Below, in pieces: positions 2,511 through 38,291 of a stretch of 38,291 nucleotides of DNA. The first letter of the stretch is position 1, and every line of letters begins with the position of its first letter. The stretch comes from a virus. Under the pieces are notes generated by a model. It worked only from the letters and a program-made list of their open reading frames with translations, did not search any database and was not told the DNA's origin. A program made the position numbers and the translations under genes. The DNA lies in IMG/VR virus record IMGVR_UViG_3300044712_000427, positions 1 to 38,291 of that record; one strand, written 5' to 3'.

Positions 2511-2627
2511 CGAAAAAAGAAATACCCAATAGGAATCGGCTATTGGGTTTCTCAATCTTTCGATTGTTTTAGGCAGCTTCCGCCGCTTATATTTTTACCG
2601 ATGTCCGATTCACATCTGTGTTTTTCT
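2511..2627 (-). ncRNA. putative small RNA with kissing-loop architecture
   Basis: About 115 nt, bounded by the promoter at 2633-2663 and the terminator at 2524-2548. On the minus strand it forms hairpin 1 GATGT-GAATCGG-ACATC (2616-2600), hairpin 2 GCGGC-GGAA-GCTGC, hairpin 3 CAATC-GAAA-GATTG, then the terminator ACCCAATAG-CCGATTC-CTATTGGGT. The 7-nt loops of hairpin 1 (GAATCGG) and the terminator (CCGATTC) are perfect complements, so an intramolecular kissing complex is possible; hairpins 2 and 3 have GNRA-type tetraloops. No ORF of note. I do not recognise the family. Confidence 0.65.
2524..2548 (-). terminator. Rho-independent terminator of the small RNA
   Basis: 9-bp perfect stem ACCCAATAG/CTATTGGGT with 7-nt loop CCGATTC on the minus strand, followed by a U-rich tail (ATTTCTTTTTT). 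It ends the transcript from the 2633-2663 promoter and backs up the late-operon terminator at 2675-2692. Confidence 0.8.
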
Positions 2628-2632
2628 TAATG

Positions 2633-2663
2633 CAAATATACTACTATTTTTTAATTATGCAAA
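2633..2663 (-). promoter_or_regulatory. promoter of the small RNA
   Basis: Minus strand: -33 TTTG (2663-2660), 19-nt spacer, -7 TATATTTG (2640-2633). This is an excellent match to the Bacteroidetes primary sigma consensus. It sits immediately downstream of the late-operon terminator with no coding gene following, which points to an RNA product. Confidence 0.8.
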
Positions 2664-2674
2664 TAAAAATAAAA

Positions 2675-2692
2675 GCTCGACCGAAATCGAGC
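2675..2692 (-). terminator. late-operon terminator
   Basis: Perfect stem GCTCGA/TCGAGC with loop TTTCGG on the minus strand, followed by TTTTATTTTTATTT. It lies 38 nt after the stop of the last late gene (2730-2966), closing the 23-kb late transcription unit. Confidence 0.85.
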
Positions 2693-2729
2693 CTTTACCA
2701 CCAAAAACTATATTCACCCACAAAAAAAA

Positions 2730-26714: not shown

Positions 26715-26806
26715 GGCTATAACACACGGTATAAAACATGCCGTGACAAGCCTGTATATAATCTGAAACATTCTACATCGGCACGTTTCATACCGCCAAC
26801 GTTAGC
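26715..26806 (-). other. attC-like site
   Basis: Minus-strand order: core GCAGCTAAC (the TAA stop of the 26802-27176 frame is inside it), arm CGGTATGAAACGTGCCG (26795-26779), spacer, arm CGGCATGTTTTATACCG (26743-26727), core GTTATAGCC. The 17-bp arms match at 15 positions. Total about 92 bp, in the attC size range. Confidence 0.68.
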
Positions 26807-26853
26807 TGCGATAACAAATAGCCTGCTTCAACGAATAGATTCTCATTGCTCCA
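26798..26853. repeat. shared cassette 3' end (copy 1)
   Basis: 51 identical bases with 28194-28244, then one mismatch and four more matches. It encodes the C-terminal MRIYSLKQAICYRS of two otherwise unrelated proteins and includes the attC core GCTAAC. Confidence 0.9.
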
Positions 26854-28102: not shown

Positions 28103-28202
28103 GCGTATAACACGGGTTTTGTGCAATTTGCCCTATTAACTTTCTGCTATAATTTGAGCGTTTGTGCAAGGGCAAACTGACACAAAGCCCGAAAACGTTA
28201 GC
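28103..28202 (-). other. attC-like site
   Basis: Minus strand: core GCAGCTAAC, arm CGGGCTTTGTGTCAGTTTGC (28191 downward), short spacer, arm GGGCAAATTGCACAAAACCC (28133-28114), core GTTATACGC (28111-28103). The arms pair over about 21 bp with two mismatches and a bulge. It separates the nuclease cassette from the methyltransferase cassette. Confidence 0.68.
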
Positions 28203-28249
28203 TGCGATAACAAATAGCCTGCTTCAACGAATAGATTCTCATTGTTCCA
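28194..28249. repeat. shared cassette 3' end (copy 2)
   Basis: 51 bases identical to 26798-26848. Here the encoded tail follows RYEIARLGT smoothly and looks native to the nuclease protein, so this copy, or a relative of it, is the likely donor. Confidence 0.9.
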
Positions 28250-28812: not shown

Positions 28813-30600
28813 TTAAAATGGTTCTATTTCGTTTGTCGGCATGTAATCAAATTCTTTATTTGTCTCAATAGTTCTGTTAATATTAATTATTTCTTCAATA
28901 ATTGGCTCATTAAATTTTATTGGTATTTCATCTGCCGTTTCGAAATATTGGTTTTTTGAAACAGAATAATACATGTCAATTTCGCCAGGTATACCTACAA
29001 GTCTTTGCTTTTTTATTTTACCTATAATTATTCTAACCGTATTATCTGACGGGTTCGATTTTCTAAAAGGTCTCCAAACTGCAATTACATTATCTGATTT
29101 ATCCGAGAAAGTCCCGCCTCCTTTAATTTTGTAAGTGTCAGGTTGTGGGTAGTTTTCTTTTCCTGAGAACATTGGAGTTACTTGATGGGCCACAAGATGC
29201 ATCGAAATATCATTGTCAACAGCGAACCTTTTTAAAGTTGACATGAATCTGCTAATGTAAAGGTCCTCTCTCTCTCCACGCTCCATTAAATGCTCTATCT
29301 GATTGTAAGGGTCAATAATGCAAGAGTTAACGCCATACTTTCGAATTAACCAACGCATTTTTGAAAGTATTGTTTCTAAATGGTAGTTTTCATCCGGAAT
29401 TATTGCGTAAAAATGTTCGTGAATATAGCTTGCAGCCTCATTATATTCTTTTTCGGTCATAACATTGTTATATCTTTTATCTGTTGACTTTCCAACATAG
29501 CAATGTATTAGCTCGTCATAATATTCTCCGACAGGGTAATTTTCAGGACTAAAAACCGCAAACTTCCAATTCTCCGCCTTTGCCTTATTAATACATAAAT
29601 TTGCTAAAAAACAACTTTTGCCTTCGTTATTATACCCGGTCCATATGTTTACATCTCCACCCCTCCACTTCCAATGCTTGTCAAATTCTTTGAAGTAAGT
29701 CGTTGTTCCAAACTTCTTACCATTTCGAAATGTATTTATCATCGAGTCCCATGTTTGAGCTAAAAATATAATACCATCCATTGGTATTTCTTTTGCTTCA
29801 GATATGGTCCTGCCTAATTCTTCTTTACCAAATGACACAAGATATTCATTGGCATCTTTTTTGCCTTTAAAATCAATCAAAAGACATCTTTCAGCCCCTA
29901 TTCTACGAATCAACTCATCTCTCAATAACATACCAGGTTCATCGGTATCAACTGCTATATATACTTTCTCAATCCTTTCAAGTTCATCAAAACAATTATC
30001 TAAAAATTGAAAATTCTTAGCTCCGTTCGGAACAGATAAAACATTTCGTATACCTACTTCAAAATAGCTTAATGCGTCAATTTCTCCCTCAACTATTACA
30101 GCTTCTTTACTATCTTTAATCGAATCTATGTTGTAAAAAATTAACTCAGCATCCTTGTAAATCTTAAATGACTTTTGCGGACCGCGATATTTTATGTTAA
30201 TTAATTCGTCATTTCGAAAATAATTAAAATGAATAGTATCGACTTCTTTGTTAAATTGTGGCATCCAATCGAATCCGGTTGTTATTTTCATTTGTCTAAG
30301 AGTGAATTGACTTATTCCTCTATTTTCAAAATACTTTACAGCCTTATCTGATAGGTCCGTATTATTTTGCCATTCGGGCCTAATGTATTTCTTTTCTTCA
30401 ATCTTAACTTTCTGAATATAAAAAACAGCTCCGCAATTAAAACACATTCCAGTTTGTTTATCATGATTCCAAGAAAGGCATTTATCAGTTTTCTTTTTTC
30501 TGGTATGTGAACAAGCCGGACAAAGTATTTGTTCCTCACCTCTGAACTTTCTGAGGTCCACATTTATTTGTTCGCCAGTTTGCTTATTAGTTATTTTCAT
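28813..30600 (-). CDS. primase-helicase (DnaG-type zinc finger, TOPRIM, DnaB-like helicase)
   Basis: 595 aa, T7 gp4-style bifunctional replication enzyme. Zinc-binding: Cys27, Cys30, then Cys53 and Cys56 (CPAC...CFNC). TOPRIM: VIVEGEIDALSYF with Glu171 and AVDTDEPG with Asp218/Asp220. RecA-like helicase: Walker A GYNNEGKS (322-329), FSPENYP (H1a-like region), Walker B CIIDPYNQIEHL, VAHQVTP and a PQPDTYKIKGGGTFSDKSDN segment. Synthesises primers and unwinds DNA at the fork. Overlaps the replisome organiser gene by 4 bp. Confidence 0.93.
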   Translation of the reverse strand: MKITNKQTGEQINVDLRKFRGEEQILCPACSHTRKKKTDKCLSWNHDKQTGMCFNCGAVFYIQKVKIEEKKYIRPEWQNNTDLSDKAVKYFENRGISQFTLRQMKITTGFDWMPQFNKEVDTIHFNYFRNDELINIKYRGPQKSFKIYKDAELIFYNIDSIKDSKEAVIVEGEIDALSYFEVGIRNVLSVPNGAKNFQFLDNCFDELERIEKVYIAVDTDEPGMLLRDELIRRIGAERCLLIDFKGKKDANEYLVSFGKEELGRTISEAKEIPMDGIIFLAQTWDSMINTFRNGKKFGTTTYFKEFDKHWKWRGGDVNIWTGYNNEGKSCFLANLCINKAKAENWKFAVFSPENYPVGEYYDELIHCYVGKSTDKRYNNVMTEKEYNEAASYIHEHFYAIIPDENYHLETILSKMRWLIRKYGVNSCIIDPYNQIEHLMERGEREDLYISRFMSTLKRFAVDNDISMHLVAHQVTPMFSGKENYPQPDTYKIKGGGTFSDKSDNVIAVWRPFRKSNPSDNTVRIIIGKIKKQRLVGIPGEIDMYYSVSKNQYFETADEIPIKFNEPIIEEIININRTIETNKEFDYMPTNEIEPF

Positions 30601-31292
30601 CGGTATTCTTCTTTAAGTTCAGCTAGGTAATAATGAGTGGATAAATTTTGTTTTGATTGTTCTTTATTTTCATCTTTAAACCAAACAGATTGAGCTTTTT
30701 GCTTCCAATTTTTAACTATATTTCCTTTACTATCTTTCCATTCGGCAACTGAATAGTATTTAAAGAATTTTATAGAACTTTGCTCAGTATATCCGTTTTC
30801 TGTAAAATATAATCTTACTTCTTCAATTGTTGGATATACTATGTTCTTTTCTTTCTTTACCTTCTTAGGATTCTTAGTATTCTTTAGTTGTTGTTGTTCG
30901 TCTGTTAGCGGCGTGTTAGCGGCGTGTTGTTCGCCTGTTAGCGGCGTGTTGTTCGCCTGTTGGTTATCTTGGTATTTATCATAATTACAGACAGTTAACC
31001 GTGTTGAATATTGTAACCCTTCTACAATAATCATATTATCAGACTCAAGTAATTTAAAAAACGACCTTACATTTTGTAAGGACCAAACAAATTTATTTGC
31101 CCAACTTTGTAAAGATAAAAGACTTTGACCTCTTAAACAATCATATAACTGTCCTTTTATCAAAACTTTTTTATCTTCATAATTAACTGTAAATAAGATT
31201 GTTTCCCATGCCTCTCGTTTTGTTAATGGTCTATATTCATCACAAAGCCAATGGTCCAAGAAGGACCGATGTAATTTTATCCATCCTTCCAT
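30597..31292 (-). CDS. replisome organiser/DnaD-like replication initiation protein
   Basis: 231 aa. N-terminal winged-helix style region (GWIKLHRSFLDHWLCDEYRP LTKREAW; SLLSLQSWANKFVWSLQNVR) typical of phage replication initiators, then a linker with a duplicated unit (NTPLTGEQ, NTPLTDEQ), a Lys-rich stretch, and a C-terminal helical domain (YPTIEEVRLYFTENGYTEQS; WKQKAQSVWF). It probably binds the origin and loads the helicase encoded next to it. The linker repeat follows DNA tandem repeats at 30903-30962. Confidence 0.8.
   Translation of the reverse strand: MEGWIKLHRSFLDHWLCDEYRPLTKREAWETILFTVNYEDKKVLIKGQLYDCLRGQSLLSLQSWANKFVWSLQNVRSFFKLLESDNMIIVEGLQYSTRLTVCNYDKYQDNQQANNTPLTGEQHAANTPLTDEQQQLKNTKNPKKVKKEKNIVYPTIEEVRLYFTENGYTEQSSIKFFKYYSVAEWKDSKGNIVKNWKQKAQSVWFKDENKEQSKQNLSTHYYLAELKEEYR
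30903..30962. repeat. tandem repeat in replisome organiser linker
   Basis: TTAGCGGCGTGTT and GTTCGCCTGTTAGCGGCGTG units recur two to three times. They encode the Thr-Pro-Leu-Thr linker repeats. Such repeats in replication protein genes can act as origin iterons; here the linker function alone explains them. Confidence 0.6.
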
Positions 31293-31294
31293 AA

Positions 31295-31576
31295 CTAAGG
31301 TATCTGAGTTTTACCGAATAAAATATTCCAAGATATTAAACCTGCTAATTTTGGCATGTCGTAAGTAAGTTGATTATGATGTTTTAAGCAAACTGTTTTC
31401 ATTAGTTCATCATCGTATTCCCAAGCTAATAAATCAGGGAAATAACATAAATGATGAACTTGAATACGATGTGTTGAGTCTCCGCAAATTTTACAAGAAT
31501 GATTATCCCGTTTAAATATTTGCTCTCTTTTTGCAATCCATAAAGGATGTTGCATTTGTTCTGAATAACTTAACAT
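31295..31576 (-). CDS. HNH endonuclease
   Basis: 93 aa. CKICG, IQVHHLCYFPDLLAWEYDDE and TVCLKHHNQ form a zinc-bracketed HNH (beta-beta-alpha metal) core; His-His in the first strand and the final His-Asn are plausible catalytic residues. Small free-standing HNH enzymes of this size occur near replication genes. The start lies just after the terminator-like leader at 31593-31632. Confidence 0.8.
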   Translation of the reverse strand: MLSYSEQMQHPLWIAKREQIFKRDNHSCKICGDSTHRIQVHHLCYFPDLLAWEYDDELMKTVCLKHHNQLTYDMPKLAGLISWNILFGKTQIP

Positions 31577-31592
31577 ATAATTTGTATAAGAA

Positions 31593-31632
31593 AAAACCCC
31601 TTACAGGCTACGACACTCTGTTAAGGGGTTTT
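31593..31632 (-). terminator. terminator-like hairpin in the leader of the HNH gene
   Basis: Stem AAACCCCTTA/TAAGGGGTTT followed by TTTTTCTTATAC on the minus strand. The 18-nt loop contains GTCGTAG, complementary to CTACGAC at 31673-31667 near the 5' end of the same leader. It could end transcripts from the cassette array or act as an attenuator. Confidence 0.75.
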
Positions 31633-31777
31633 CAGGTTTTTTTAAAACCTTAATTTCTTAATGTTGGTCGTAGTCAACAATGCAAATATTGCTAAATTCA
31701 ATTAAATATTACACAATTTCATAAATAATTTATACAATATAATTTATTTTAACAATACTATATATTTGTATTTTAGG

Positions 31778-31826
31778 CATTTACAAAAATATGTTATACT
31801 TATATGGCGTTTAGCAATTAGTTATA
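31778..31826 (-). repeat. 49-bp conserved array 3' flank
   Basis: Second copy of the element at 26294-26342 (44 of 49 identical). On the minus strand it ends at ATG followed by CCTAAAATACAAATATATAG, the start of the 37969-38187 gene, which here breaks off after eight codons and stops soon after. Confidence 0.65.
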
Positions 31827-32169
31827 TACCACTTAAAGAAAGTTCCTCGCCTGTAAGTGCATAGTATAAATTTTGTAGTTGGTGAGCAAAATGAATTTCG
31901 GCAATCCATGTTTCAGTTTCACCAAAATAAACCTGACCTTCTACGCTAATTATAAATTCGCCAATATGATAATAACCTACAGTCCCTTCTTCTAAACCAA
32001 ATTTAATAAGCCAGCCTTCATTTAATTTAATCGGAACGGCTTGCCATGTAGTAAGGCATTCAAAGTCAAATACAATATTCCCTGACCTTAATAGCTCAAG
32101 TACCTTAATTACTTTATTTGAATATTTTTCTATAAAAACATTCCCTATTCTTAATTCATTTGCTTTCAT
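31822..32169 (-). CDS. cassette gene, conserved Bacteroidetes phage protein
   Basis: 115 aa, MKANELRIGNVFIEKYSNKV ... WLIKFGLEE ... FAHQLQNLYYALTGEELSL. This is a recurrent small protein of Bacteroidetes phages and mobile elements (N-terminal NELRIGN, C-terminal HQLQNLYxALTGEEL), function not established. The cassette boxes GTTATATACC (31821-31830) and GGTATATAAC (32200-32209) are a perfect 10-bp inverted pair, extending to 14 of 15. A second copy exists at the contig ends. Confidence 0.8.
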   Translation of the reverse strand: MKANELRIGNVFIEKYSNKVIKVLELLRSGNIVFDFECLTTWQAVPIKLNEGWLIKFGLEEGTVGYYHIGEFIISVEGQVYFGETETWIAEIHFAHQLQNLYYALTGEELSLSGI

Positions 32170-32199
32170 ATATTTTTGTTTAAATAATTAATAATAAGC

Positions 32200-32337
32200 G
32201 GTATATAACAAGCGGTCATAAAACATTGGGGTTTAATTTGTTATTCAAACTTTGTACCCCGTGCAAAGTTCGGTTTCGGCTGATAGGTTCGTGGCTCGAA
32301 ATTCCCAACGATTTTATACCGCCAGCCGTTAGCAACA
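32200..32337 (-). other. attC-like site (complete copy)
   Basis: Minus strand: core TGTTGCTAAC, arm GGCGGTATAAAATCGTTGGG, spacer of about 75 nt, arm CCCCAATGTTTTATGACCGC, core GTTATATACC. About 135 bp. Copy at 1-129. The arms match at 17 of 20 positions. Confidence 0.7.
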
Positions 32338-36640: not shown

Positions 36641-37168
36641 TTATTTTTTGTTAAAATGTCCCCATTTGAAACGAACTTTGTCATTATTATCTTTACAGGC
36701 TAATCCAGTTAACTTACCTTCTGTAAATTCTGAAATCCACTTCCAGTCTTTTAGTTTTAAAAGATAAGTAGTTTTGCCTGTTGTTTTATCAAATTCTTCA
36801 TCTGTTAATTGAACTTTAATGACAGGATAATCATAAAGCTCGCGACCTATACCCCAATTAAAACAAGCACGTTTAAATGAATCGCTAGCAAGTCCTTTCT
36901 CTTTTTCTGTATTACTTTCGGTTCCGGTGTCCTCTTTTGAAACCCATTGTTTTTTAATATCGTCCCAAATAGAAACGATACAGTTTTGGTTTTCTCTAGT
37001 ATGTTCGCGCTTCCAGTTTAATCGCCCGCAAACTTCATCTAATCTATTCATGTCAGCTCTGGCATCTTTATAGGCCAAAATTGTAGCGAATCCACCTTTA
37101 TTGACTGATTGTATTCTAAAATCTATTTCGTCAATTTTTAAAGGCTCTGATAATTTTTTTAGTTCCAT
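36641..37168 (-). CDS. Rad52/Sak-like single-strand annealing protein
   Basis: 175 aa. GGFATILAYKDARADMNRLD, NWKREHTREN and especially KGLASDSFKRACFNWGIGRE LYDYP match the Rad52/Rad22 (Sak) annealase core, where the helix with SxxFKRAxxxxGIG is diagnostic. It promotes annealing of complementary strands in phage recombination. Preceded by a promoter and an RNA element (37185-37262), so its expression may be controlled in its leader. Confidence 0.82.
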   Translation of the reverse strand: MELKKLSEPLKIDEIDFRIQSVNKGGFATILAYKDARADMNRLDEVCGRLNWKREHTRENQNCIVSIWDDIKKQWVSKEDTGTESNTEKEKGLASDSFKRACFNWGIGRELYDYPVIKVQLTDEEFDKTTGKTTYLLKLKDWKWISEFTEGKLTGLACKDNNDKVRFKWGHFNKK

Positions 37169-37184: not shown

Positions 37185-37262
37185 AAGCCCCTTAAAAGTA
37201 CTTACCGGGTACAATTAAAGGGCTTCGAGGTTTATAACCAATATTTTAGCACTACCCGGTAA
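37185..37262 (-). promoter_or_regulatory. structured 5' leader: terminator-like stem with pseudoknot
   Basis: Minus-strand order: TTACCGGGTA (37262-37253), 27 nt, AAGCCCTTTAA (37225-37215), 3 nt, TACCCGGTAA (37211-37202), 6 nt, TTAAGGGGCTT (37195-37185), TTTAAATTTAAAA. The outer 10-mer pairs perfectly with the loop of the 11-bp, U-rich-tailed stem, giving an H-type pseudoknot or alternative folds. Sits between a promoter and the annealase start: a candidate attenuator, protein operator or ligand-sensing element. Confidence 0.65.
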
Positions 37263-37271
37263 ATAGTAATT

Positions 37272-37301
37272 CAAAGATACAAAATAAAATGAACTTTGCA
37301 A
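37272..37301 (-). promoter_or_regulatory. promoter of the annealase operon
   Basis: Minus strand: -33 TTG (37301-37299), 19-nt spacer, -7 TATCTTTG (37279-37272), full TAnnTTTG match. The transcript would start close to 37266, a few bases before the pseudoknot leader. Confidence 0.75.
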
Positions 37302-37968: not shown

Positions 37969-38187
37969 TTAATCAAATAACCAATCTGGATAGTTTGGAT
38001 ATTCTTTGTTTGTTTTTTCTTTATAATAAAAATCGTTTGCTTTATTTATAACTGCTATTTCTCCGCCTTCTCGTAACAAATTAACAGCGTTTACTTTATG
38101 TAATATTAAATAGTTCCAAGCTTTTTCGCAACGTAATGATATTTTTATTGCATAAACTTTTTTGCTATATATTTGTATTTTAGGCAT
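37969..38187 (-). CDS. hypothetical small protein at the duplication edge
   Basis: 72 aa, MPKIQIYSKKVYAIKISLRC ... NYPDWLFD. Its first eight codons lie inside the duplicated segment; the copy at 31758-31780 keeps only these before running out. The ATG is the one that ends the 49-bp conserved flank. This copy is intact and probably ancestral. Confidence 0.65.
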   Translation of the reverse strand: MPKIQIYSKKVYAIKISLRCEKAWNYLILHKVNAVNLLREGGEIAVINKANDFYYKEKTNKEYPNYPDWLFD

Positions 38188-38291
38188 TTACAAAAATATG
38201 TTATACTTATATGGCGTTTAGCAATTAGTTATATACCACTTAAAGAAAGTTCCTCGCCTGTAAGTGCATAGTATAAATTTTGTAGTTGGTG
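38165..38291. repeat. 127-bp contig-end copy of 31758-31884
   Basis: Identical to 31758-31884; the preceding base differs (G here, A there). Marks entry into the 578-bp duplicated segment at the contig end. Includes a third copy of the 49-bp flank (38185-38233). Confidence 0.9.
38229..38291 (-). CDS. partial second copy of the 31822-32169 gene
   Basis: Only the last 20 codons (HQLQNLYYALTGEELSLSGI) and the stop are in the window; the rest is expected across the contig junction, followed by the attC-like site at 1-129. Identical to 31822-31884 over the visible part. Confidence 0.8.
   Translation of the reverse strand, partial: HQLQNLYYALTGEELSLSGI

Follow-up and report, generated by a model that had tools for sequence, protein, structure and literature searches.

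The window analysed here is the whole of an IMG/VR virus record, 38,291 bases long, whose phage genes lie on the minus strand and include those for a portal, a terminase, a tape measure, a DnaD-like loader, a primase/helicase and an Erf-like protein. Element A is found on the same strand. A preliminary description of this DNA, which gave no strand, had placed just past the late-operon terminator a TTTG-19-TATATTTG promoter and a terminator enclosing about 115 nt without a gene, with GAATCGG and CCGATTC as complete, exactly complementary 7-nt loops and two further hairpins carrying GGAA and GAAA tetraloops; sequence and fold agree with it in each of these features (Table 1). The promoter follows the Bacteroidota-type consensus given in excerpts of PMC7366714 and PMC9723704, and other Bacteroidota phages carry strings like it ahead of genes or of a tRNA array. 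In the available part of PMC9723704 the -7 box lies at -12 to -5 relative to the start, so that the start of A would fall near 2628. Element A folds at -29.1 kcal/mol, whereas its shuffles average -16.8 and none of 200 folds as well, and one pair of complete complementary 7-nt loops was counted in the window against a mean of 0.02 in 200 dinucleotide shuffles.

Table 1. Positions, in window coordinates, of elements A, B and C and of the genes and signals beside them
Feature	Position	Strand	Particulars	Basis
Late (lysis) operon terminator, just upstream of A	2668-2699	-		Sequence
Promoter of A	2633-2663	-	TTTG 2663-2660, 19 nt, TATATTTG 2640-2633	Sequence and published consensus
Element A, predicted RNA of ~115 nt, no gene	2513-2628	-	Fold z -4.2	Fold; start placed from the -7 box
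H1 of A	2597-2619	-	Loop GAATCGG 2611-2605	Fold
GGAA tetraloop hairpin, linker of A	2573-2586	-		Fold
GAAA tetraloop hairpin, linker of A	2553-2566	-		Fold
Terminator hairpin of A	2524-2548	-	Loop CCGATTC 2539-2533, U-run to ~2513	Sequence and fold
Element B, leader	31588-31679	-	H1 loop CTACGAC 31673-31667, AT-rich middle hairpin, terminator loop GTCGTAG 31614-31608	
HNH-endonuclease-like gene behind B	31295-31576	-		PHROGs
DnaD-like gene, after HNH-like gene	30597-31292	-		PHROGs
Primase/helicase (DnaB-like) gene, after DnaD-like gene	28813-30600	-		PHROGs
Promoter of C	37272-37301	-	TTG, 19 nt, TATCTTTG	
Element C	37185-37267	-	H1 loop TTACCGG 37262-37256; terminator hairpin 37225-37185, loop CCGGTAA 37208-37202	
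Erf/Rad52-like ssDNA-annealing gene, start codon just after C	36641-37168	-		PHROGs and Pfam PF04098

Two more putative kissing units in the window, B (31679-31588) and C (37267-37185), had been overlooked in the preliminary description. Element B (fold z -5.1) directly precedes an HNH-DnaD-DnaB operon, the start codon of the next gene being at 31576. Both have weak points, namely an imperfect -7 box in B (AATATTTG) and a weak U-run in C (CTTTTAAATTT).

Behind A, on the minus strand, an open frame of about 53 residues (RYLVTLTDFEPFFTNWFEKDNYICGMVVYDLHNHTYFKG..., 2210-2049) has no nearby ATG, GTG or TTG start and is possibly a gene that lost its start. Two 22-nt direct repeats (1984-2027 and about 1975-1944), possible operators, lie just upstream of TTG-N20-TATCTTTA, a promoter-like site preceding the gene at 1901-1692. 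Elsewhere on the minus strand, large imperfect hairpins (28197-28042, 26801-26699, 32341-32170, 34098-33897 and 606-468) adjoin single small genes, and several of them are bounded by motifs such as GCTAACG and CGTTGTTATACGC; we take these hairpins to resemble integron attC sites. The contig ends share exact 127-nt overlaps with an internal stretch (1-127 with 32209-32335, and 38165-38291 with 31758-31884). A circular genome is probable, in which the assembler merged two copies of a repeat of about 578 bp (31758-32335) that comprises the gene at 31822-32169 and its hairpin. A 61-nt repeat, 95% identical, is found at 26793-26853 and 28189-28249, each copy overlapping the 3' end of a minus-strand ORF, and there is a short 11-nt tandem repeat within the DnaD-like gene (30892-30957).

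Searches for relatives of element A

Nucleotide searches with blastn gave no match for a query of 1.5 kb and, for one of 153 bases, a match to the promoter alone, the plasmid matches being due to chance. Two loop-plus-promoter patterns of A yielded 0 and 0 loci in viral contigs, and its terminator-stem pattern yielded 10 loci, in none of which complementary loops lay upstream. The loop pattern was found at 51 loci in 84,980 genomes, none with the two-hairpin unit; on reading, 18 of the 51 were tRNA genes in which GAATCGG/CCGATTC forms the acceptor stem, which is the acceptor stem of Balneolales tRNAs. ARAGORN found 0 tRNA genes, and a tRNA-like identity was rejected. A covariance model built from A as its one sequence matched, in 33 sources, the window itself and its own opposite strand only; it found nothing in 15 whole records and gave three weak hits in 7 loci, the best of which (21.8 bits in L050) is a reverse-strand terminator. 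In seven relative contigs, the slot of A behind the lysis-end gene holds terminators and no kissing RNA, and in two of the seven (L045 and L047) it holds a promoter for an early gene. A protein search with the early gene at 1692-1901 found no kin, and alignment of the portal against genome contigs found none.

Two other leaders deserve mention. In Riemerella phage vB_RanS_PT03 (L041, 601-790), a promoter very like that of A is followed by a long leader before antirepressor genes, with inverted repeats and a U-run. In a relative (L015, 4336-4530, plus strand), a strong TAnnTTTG promoter and an apparently structured leader of about 160 nt, with no Rfam match, precede a small gene and sit between structural genes.

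Loop-matched leaders before early genes in other phages

The scans looked for a hairpin whose loop has its match in the loop of a terminator hairpin further on, with the reversed, the complemented and the same word as controls. Anchored on promoters and set to 7 nt, the scan covered 42 sources, made up of the window and 41 loci, and gave four hits, A, B, C and L032, against 0, 1 and 0 in the reverse, complement and same-word controls. Locus L032, from a distant relative, carries TTAGGCC/GGCCTAA directly before a DUF1376/DnaD-like gene, which is followed by a DnaB-like helicase gene. An independent set of 47 viral contigs (L123-L169) was fetched by the DUF1376-like protein of L032 alone; 46 of these are new with respect to the observation that raised the idea, the exception, L123, being the contig of L032. 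The promoter-anchored scan of this set gave 22 hits, against 0, 0 and 0 in the controls.

Two loci that begin at a contig edge (L162 and L169) were dropped, and the other 45 loci hold 33 distinct leaders. Immediately ahead of the gene, loop matches loop exactly over 7 nt in 18 of the 33 (27 of the 45 loci), compared with 0 of 33 in each control. Word search found a 7-nt match, loop to loop on reading, in L126, L127, L128, L157 and L161, with one additional 6-nt match elsewhere in L127. At L124 and L163 the gene lies inside an operon that is headed by a kissing leader (L172 and L193). With scan, word search and operon heads together, a 7-nt kissing leader is predicted for 25 of the 33 distinct leaders, or 34 of the 45 loci, and no clear one is found at the gene in 11 of the 45. 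Left out of the positives were L168, with an 8-nt match in loops read by eye, and L130, with an 8-nt match and an unclear H1; L159 has no loop match, and on reading no terminator lies immediately ahead of the gene in L136, L138, L152, L153, L154, L165, L166 and L167. The 7-nt length was relied on because at 6 nt the complement control reached 11 of 33, one lineage's word (ATGGTAC) being nearly self-matching. Scan variants differ in their thresholds, one missing A and finding B and C and another counting only 2 in the window, and a whole-record scan with no promoter requirement was near background (14 against 11, 6 and 8 in the controls). Six named-phage sequences gave one chance-like hit against 0, 1 and 0 and so do not tie the class to phages known from isolates. 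Among 395 Bacteroidota genomes (one and the same draw on two occasions) a single one had the DUF1376-like family, and its leader there (L170) is uncertainly placed and was not counted.

The preliminary description had held that loop changes should be compensated in homologues. Among leaders of the class this is what is seen, A itself having no homologue. The loop table had 18 leaders entered and 16 parsed (L161 and L168 were left unparsed), and the 16 carry 15 different loop words, every one complementary. When the terminator loops were dealt at random among the leaders (2000 deals), a mean of 1.1 and at most 6 were complementary. In an alignment of 12 related leaders, from which L129 was left out because MAFFT had shifted its H1, the kissing helix is 100% paired and two of its pairs are changed on both sides (GC to CG and UA to GC, in three sequences that belong to a single lineage); doubly changed pairs number 3 in H1 and 5 in the terminator, and 0 when partners are slid by 1 to 3 columns. 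As few lineages enter this alignment, the evidence draws its strength from the variety of loop words among dissimilar leaders. Complementarity gives good support for kissing within the class, and it is from the class that the earlier suggestion of a kissing interaction in A takes its backing, A having no sequence homologue of its own. Computation shows the promoter-like sites, the folds, loops that are exactly complementary and whose changes are compensated, and the position before early genes.

A candidate antitermination mechanism and its alternatives

From the promoter, the leaders continue with H1, which has a loop of 7-8 nt, then a linker, the terminator carrying the matching loop, a U-run and the start codon; the terminator hairpin comes about 45-70 nt after H1 and the two loops are exact reverse complements. 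The class is found ahead of replication and recombination genes, in their 5' leaders, and the terminator sits immediately in front of the start codon, an arrangement suggestive of transcriptional control in cis. We consider it moderately probable that A, B and C are members of one class of 5' leader RNAs, in phages using Bacteroidota-type promoters, that act by antitermination through kissing of H1 with the terminator. H1 would fold first and capture the terminator loop as it leaves RNA polymerase, the two loops forming a 7-bp kissing helix. The linker would be too short for a stacked rod of H1, kissing helix and terminator, so that the basal terminator stem could not close and polymerase would read into the operon; opening or blocking the contact would restore termination. 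Transcription of the leaders, kissing in vivo, the direction of the switch and its trigger we infer.

The opposite sense, an attenuator in which kissing stabilises or speeds the terminator hairpin and silences the replication operon until the contact is opened by a factor from phage or host, is unlikely. It would fit the strong terminator hairpins with U-runs directly before start codons, and kissing helices can stack on stems. By a crude geometry with assumed rises of 2.8 Å per base pair and 6 Å per linker nucleotide, a rough ruler, short linkers would strain kissing together with a full terminator stem in 14 of 17 operon leaders, which need at least the full reach of the linker, whereas A needs 0.55 of it. 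The fit is poor for C (0.90), L164 (0.54) and L161 (0.36, its stem mis-parsed). The geometry sets A apart from most operon leaders, for which it favours antitermination, and the precedent of the guanidine-IV riboswitch, in the portions of PMC7736828 and PMC11611296 available, also runs against an attenuator. Against antitermination itself, the 7-bp contact may always be formed, in which case there would be no switch.

Less probable still is a post-transcriptional element, with the kissing fold shielding the mRNA 5' end or controlling how the ribosome reaches the start codon. The start codon lies 24-36 nt from the terminator loop in 15 of the 16 tabulated leaders and 48 nt from it in L193 (the figure of 33 for A is the distance to the segment end, as no gene follows it), and this spacing would suit such an element. 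The U-rich tracts behind the hairpins, however, resemble those of intrinsic terminators, and A ends in a U-run with no gene behind.

Because A alone has no gene directly behind it, it could be a stand-alone small RNA acting in trans through pairing of its loops with other RNAs, a reading we rate as slightly more doubtful again. Its own promoter and terminator would suit this role, and the window holds GAATCGG 8 times where 2.0 occurrences are expected. Ordered by dinucleotide expectation, however, that word comes only 65th among 6835, and under a higher-order model 4.5 occurrences would be expected, on which grounds a seed common to A and phage mRNAs was rejected; moreover, the loops of A, B and C differ and show no common target word. 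Among the functions offered in the preliminary description, a regulatory role is favoured by the class, and an RNA decoy or packaging-related RNA found nothing in its support and was rejected. That the complementary loops arose by chance is very improbable: for A alone at least one such pair appears in 4 of 200 shuffles (with stems as strong in 0 of 200), but 15 loop words in 16 leaders are all complementary with 7-nt controls at 0 of 33, and for the class chance is refuted by the sequences.

Under the antitermination reading, A would be an orphaned leader or a stand-alone copy, whose long linker with two hairpins would make kissing and termination compatible and yield a compact terminated RNA. 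Against its membership stand the lack of a sequence homologue, a slot empty of kissing RNA in relatives and the lack of a gene behind; A is assigned to the class by architecture, not homology. More tentatively, these leaders may constitute a class of phage RNA switch conserved only in its loop-to-loop match, a kissing antiterminator in which contact and linker strain gate a replication operon, with a private loop code in each phage and with relaxed-linker copies like A released as separate kissing RNAs.

Comparison with known regulatory RNAs

Kissing loops of about 7 nt control replication in the pT181 attenuator and in ColE1 RNA I/II. The partners there are two RNAs from opposite strands, whereas here both loops lie in one strand of one leader. 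Suppression of termination by a cis-acting nascent phage RNA in early phage transcription is described for HK022 put in the abstract of PMC9378689. The early-gene position is similar in the present leaders; put acts by binding RNA polymerase, and that abstract makes no mention of a loop match with a terminator.

The closest likeness is to the guanidine-IV (GGAM-1, mepA) riboswitch, in which, according to the accessible text of PMC7736828 and PMC11611296, the leader immediately ahead of the start codon has a first hairpin whose loop pairs with that of the terminator in a kissing contact. Those excerpts propose that the contact stretches the linker and blocks the outer terminator pairs, giving antitermination. 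An upstream hairpin loop complementary to the terminator loop is likewise found in the present leaders. Guanidine-IV, as described there, needs guanidine and highly conserved loop nucleotides, whereas the present loops share only the 7-nt match: 15 words in 16 leaders, and no invariant column in the 17-leader alignment that could represent conserved ligand contacts. The known switch sits before guanidine exporters or related genes, and the present leaders precede primosomal, HNH or Erf-like genes.

No Rfam 15 family reaches the gathering score in the window, nor does any in seven relatives and eight loci (L032, L125, L131, L144, L158, L163, L154 and L127), and weaker scans of the A region and the L131 leader gave chance-level hits only. 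Profile tools that score sequence and nested pairs are blind to a class whose only conserved feature is a pseudoknot-type loop match, which may explain the missing family. No title or abstract found in the literature on kissing loops, phage leaders and terminators describes such a class, within a scope that excluded most subscription papers and all preprints. The available part of PMC8040213 describes numerous structured RNA candidates of terminator-like form in Bacteroidetes, some of them close to phage genes. A leader that kisses its terminator loop is already known from guanidine-IV, as far as those sources extend; leaving aside the Bacteroidetes candidates, what is new lies in loops that keep no letters in common, in the kind of genes controlled and in an apparently missing ligand site. 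The class makes it testable whether loop contact alone can open an intrinsic terminator. If the strain model is true, these leaders would be a ligand-free analogue of the guanidine-IV switch, a means by which phages gate their replication genes and a ready-made stock of numerous orthogonal kissing switches.
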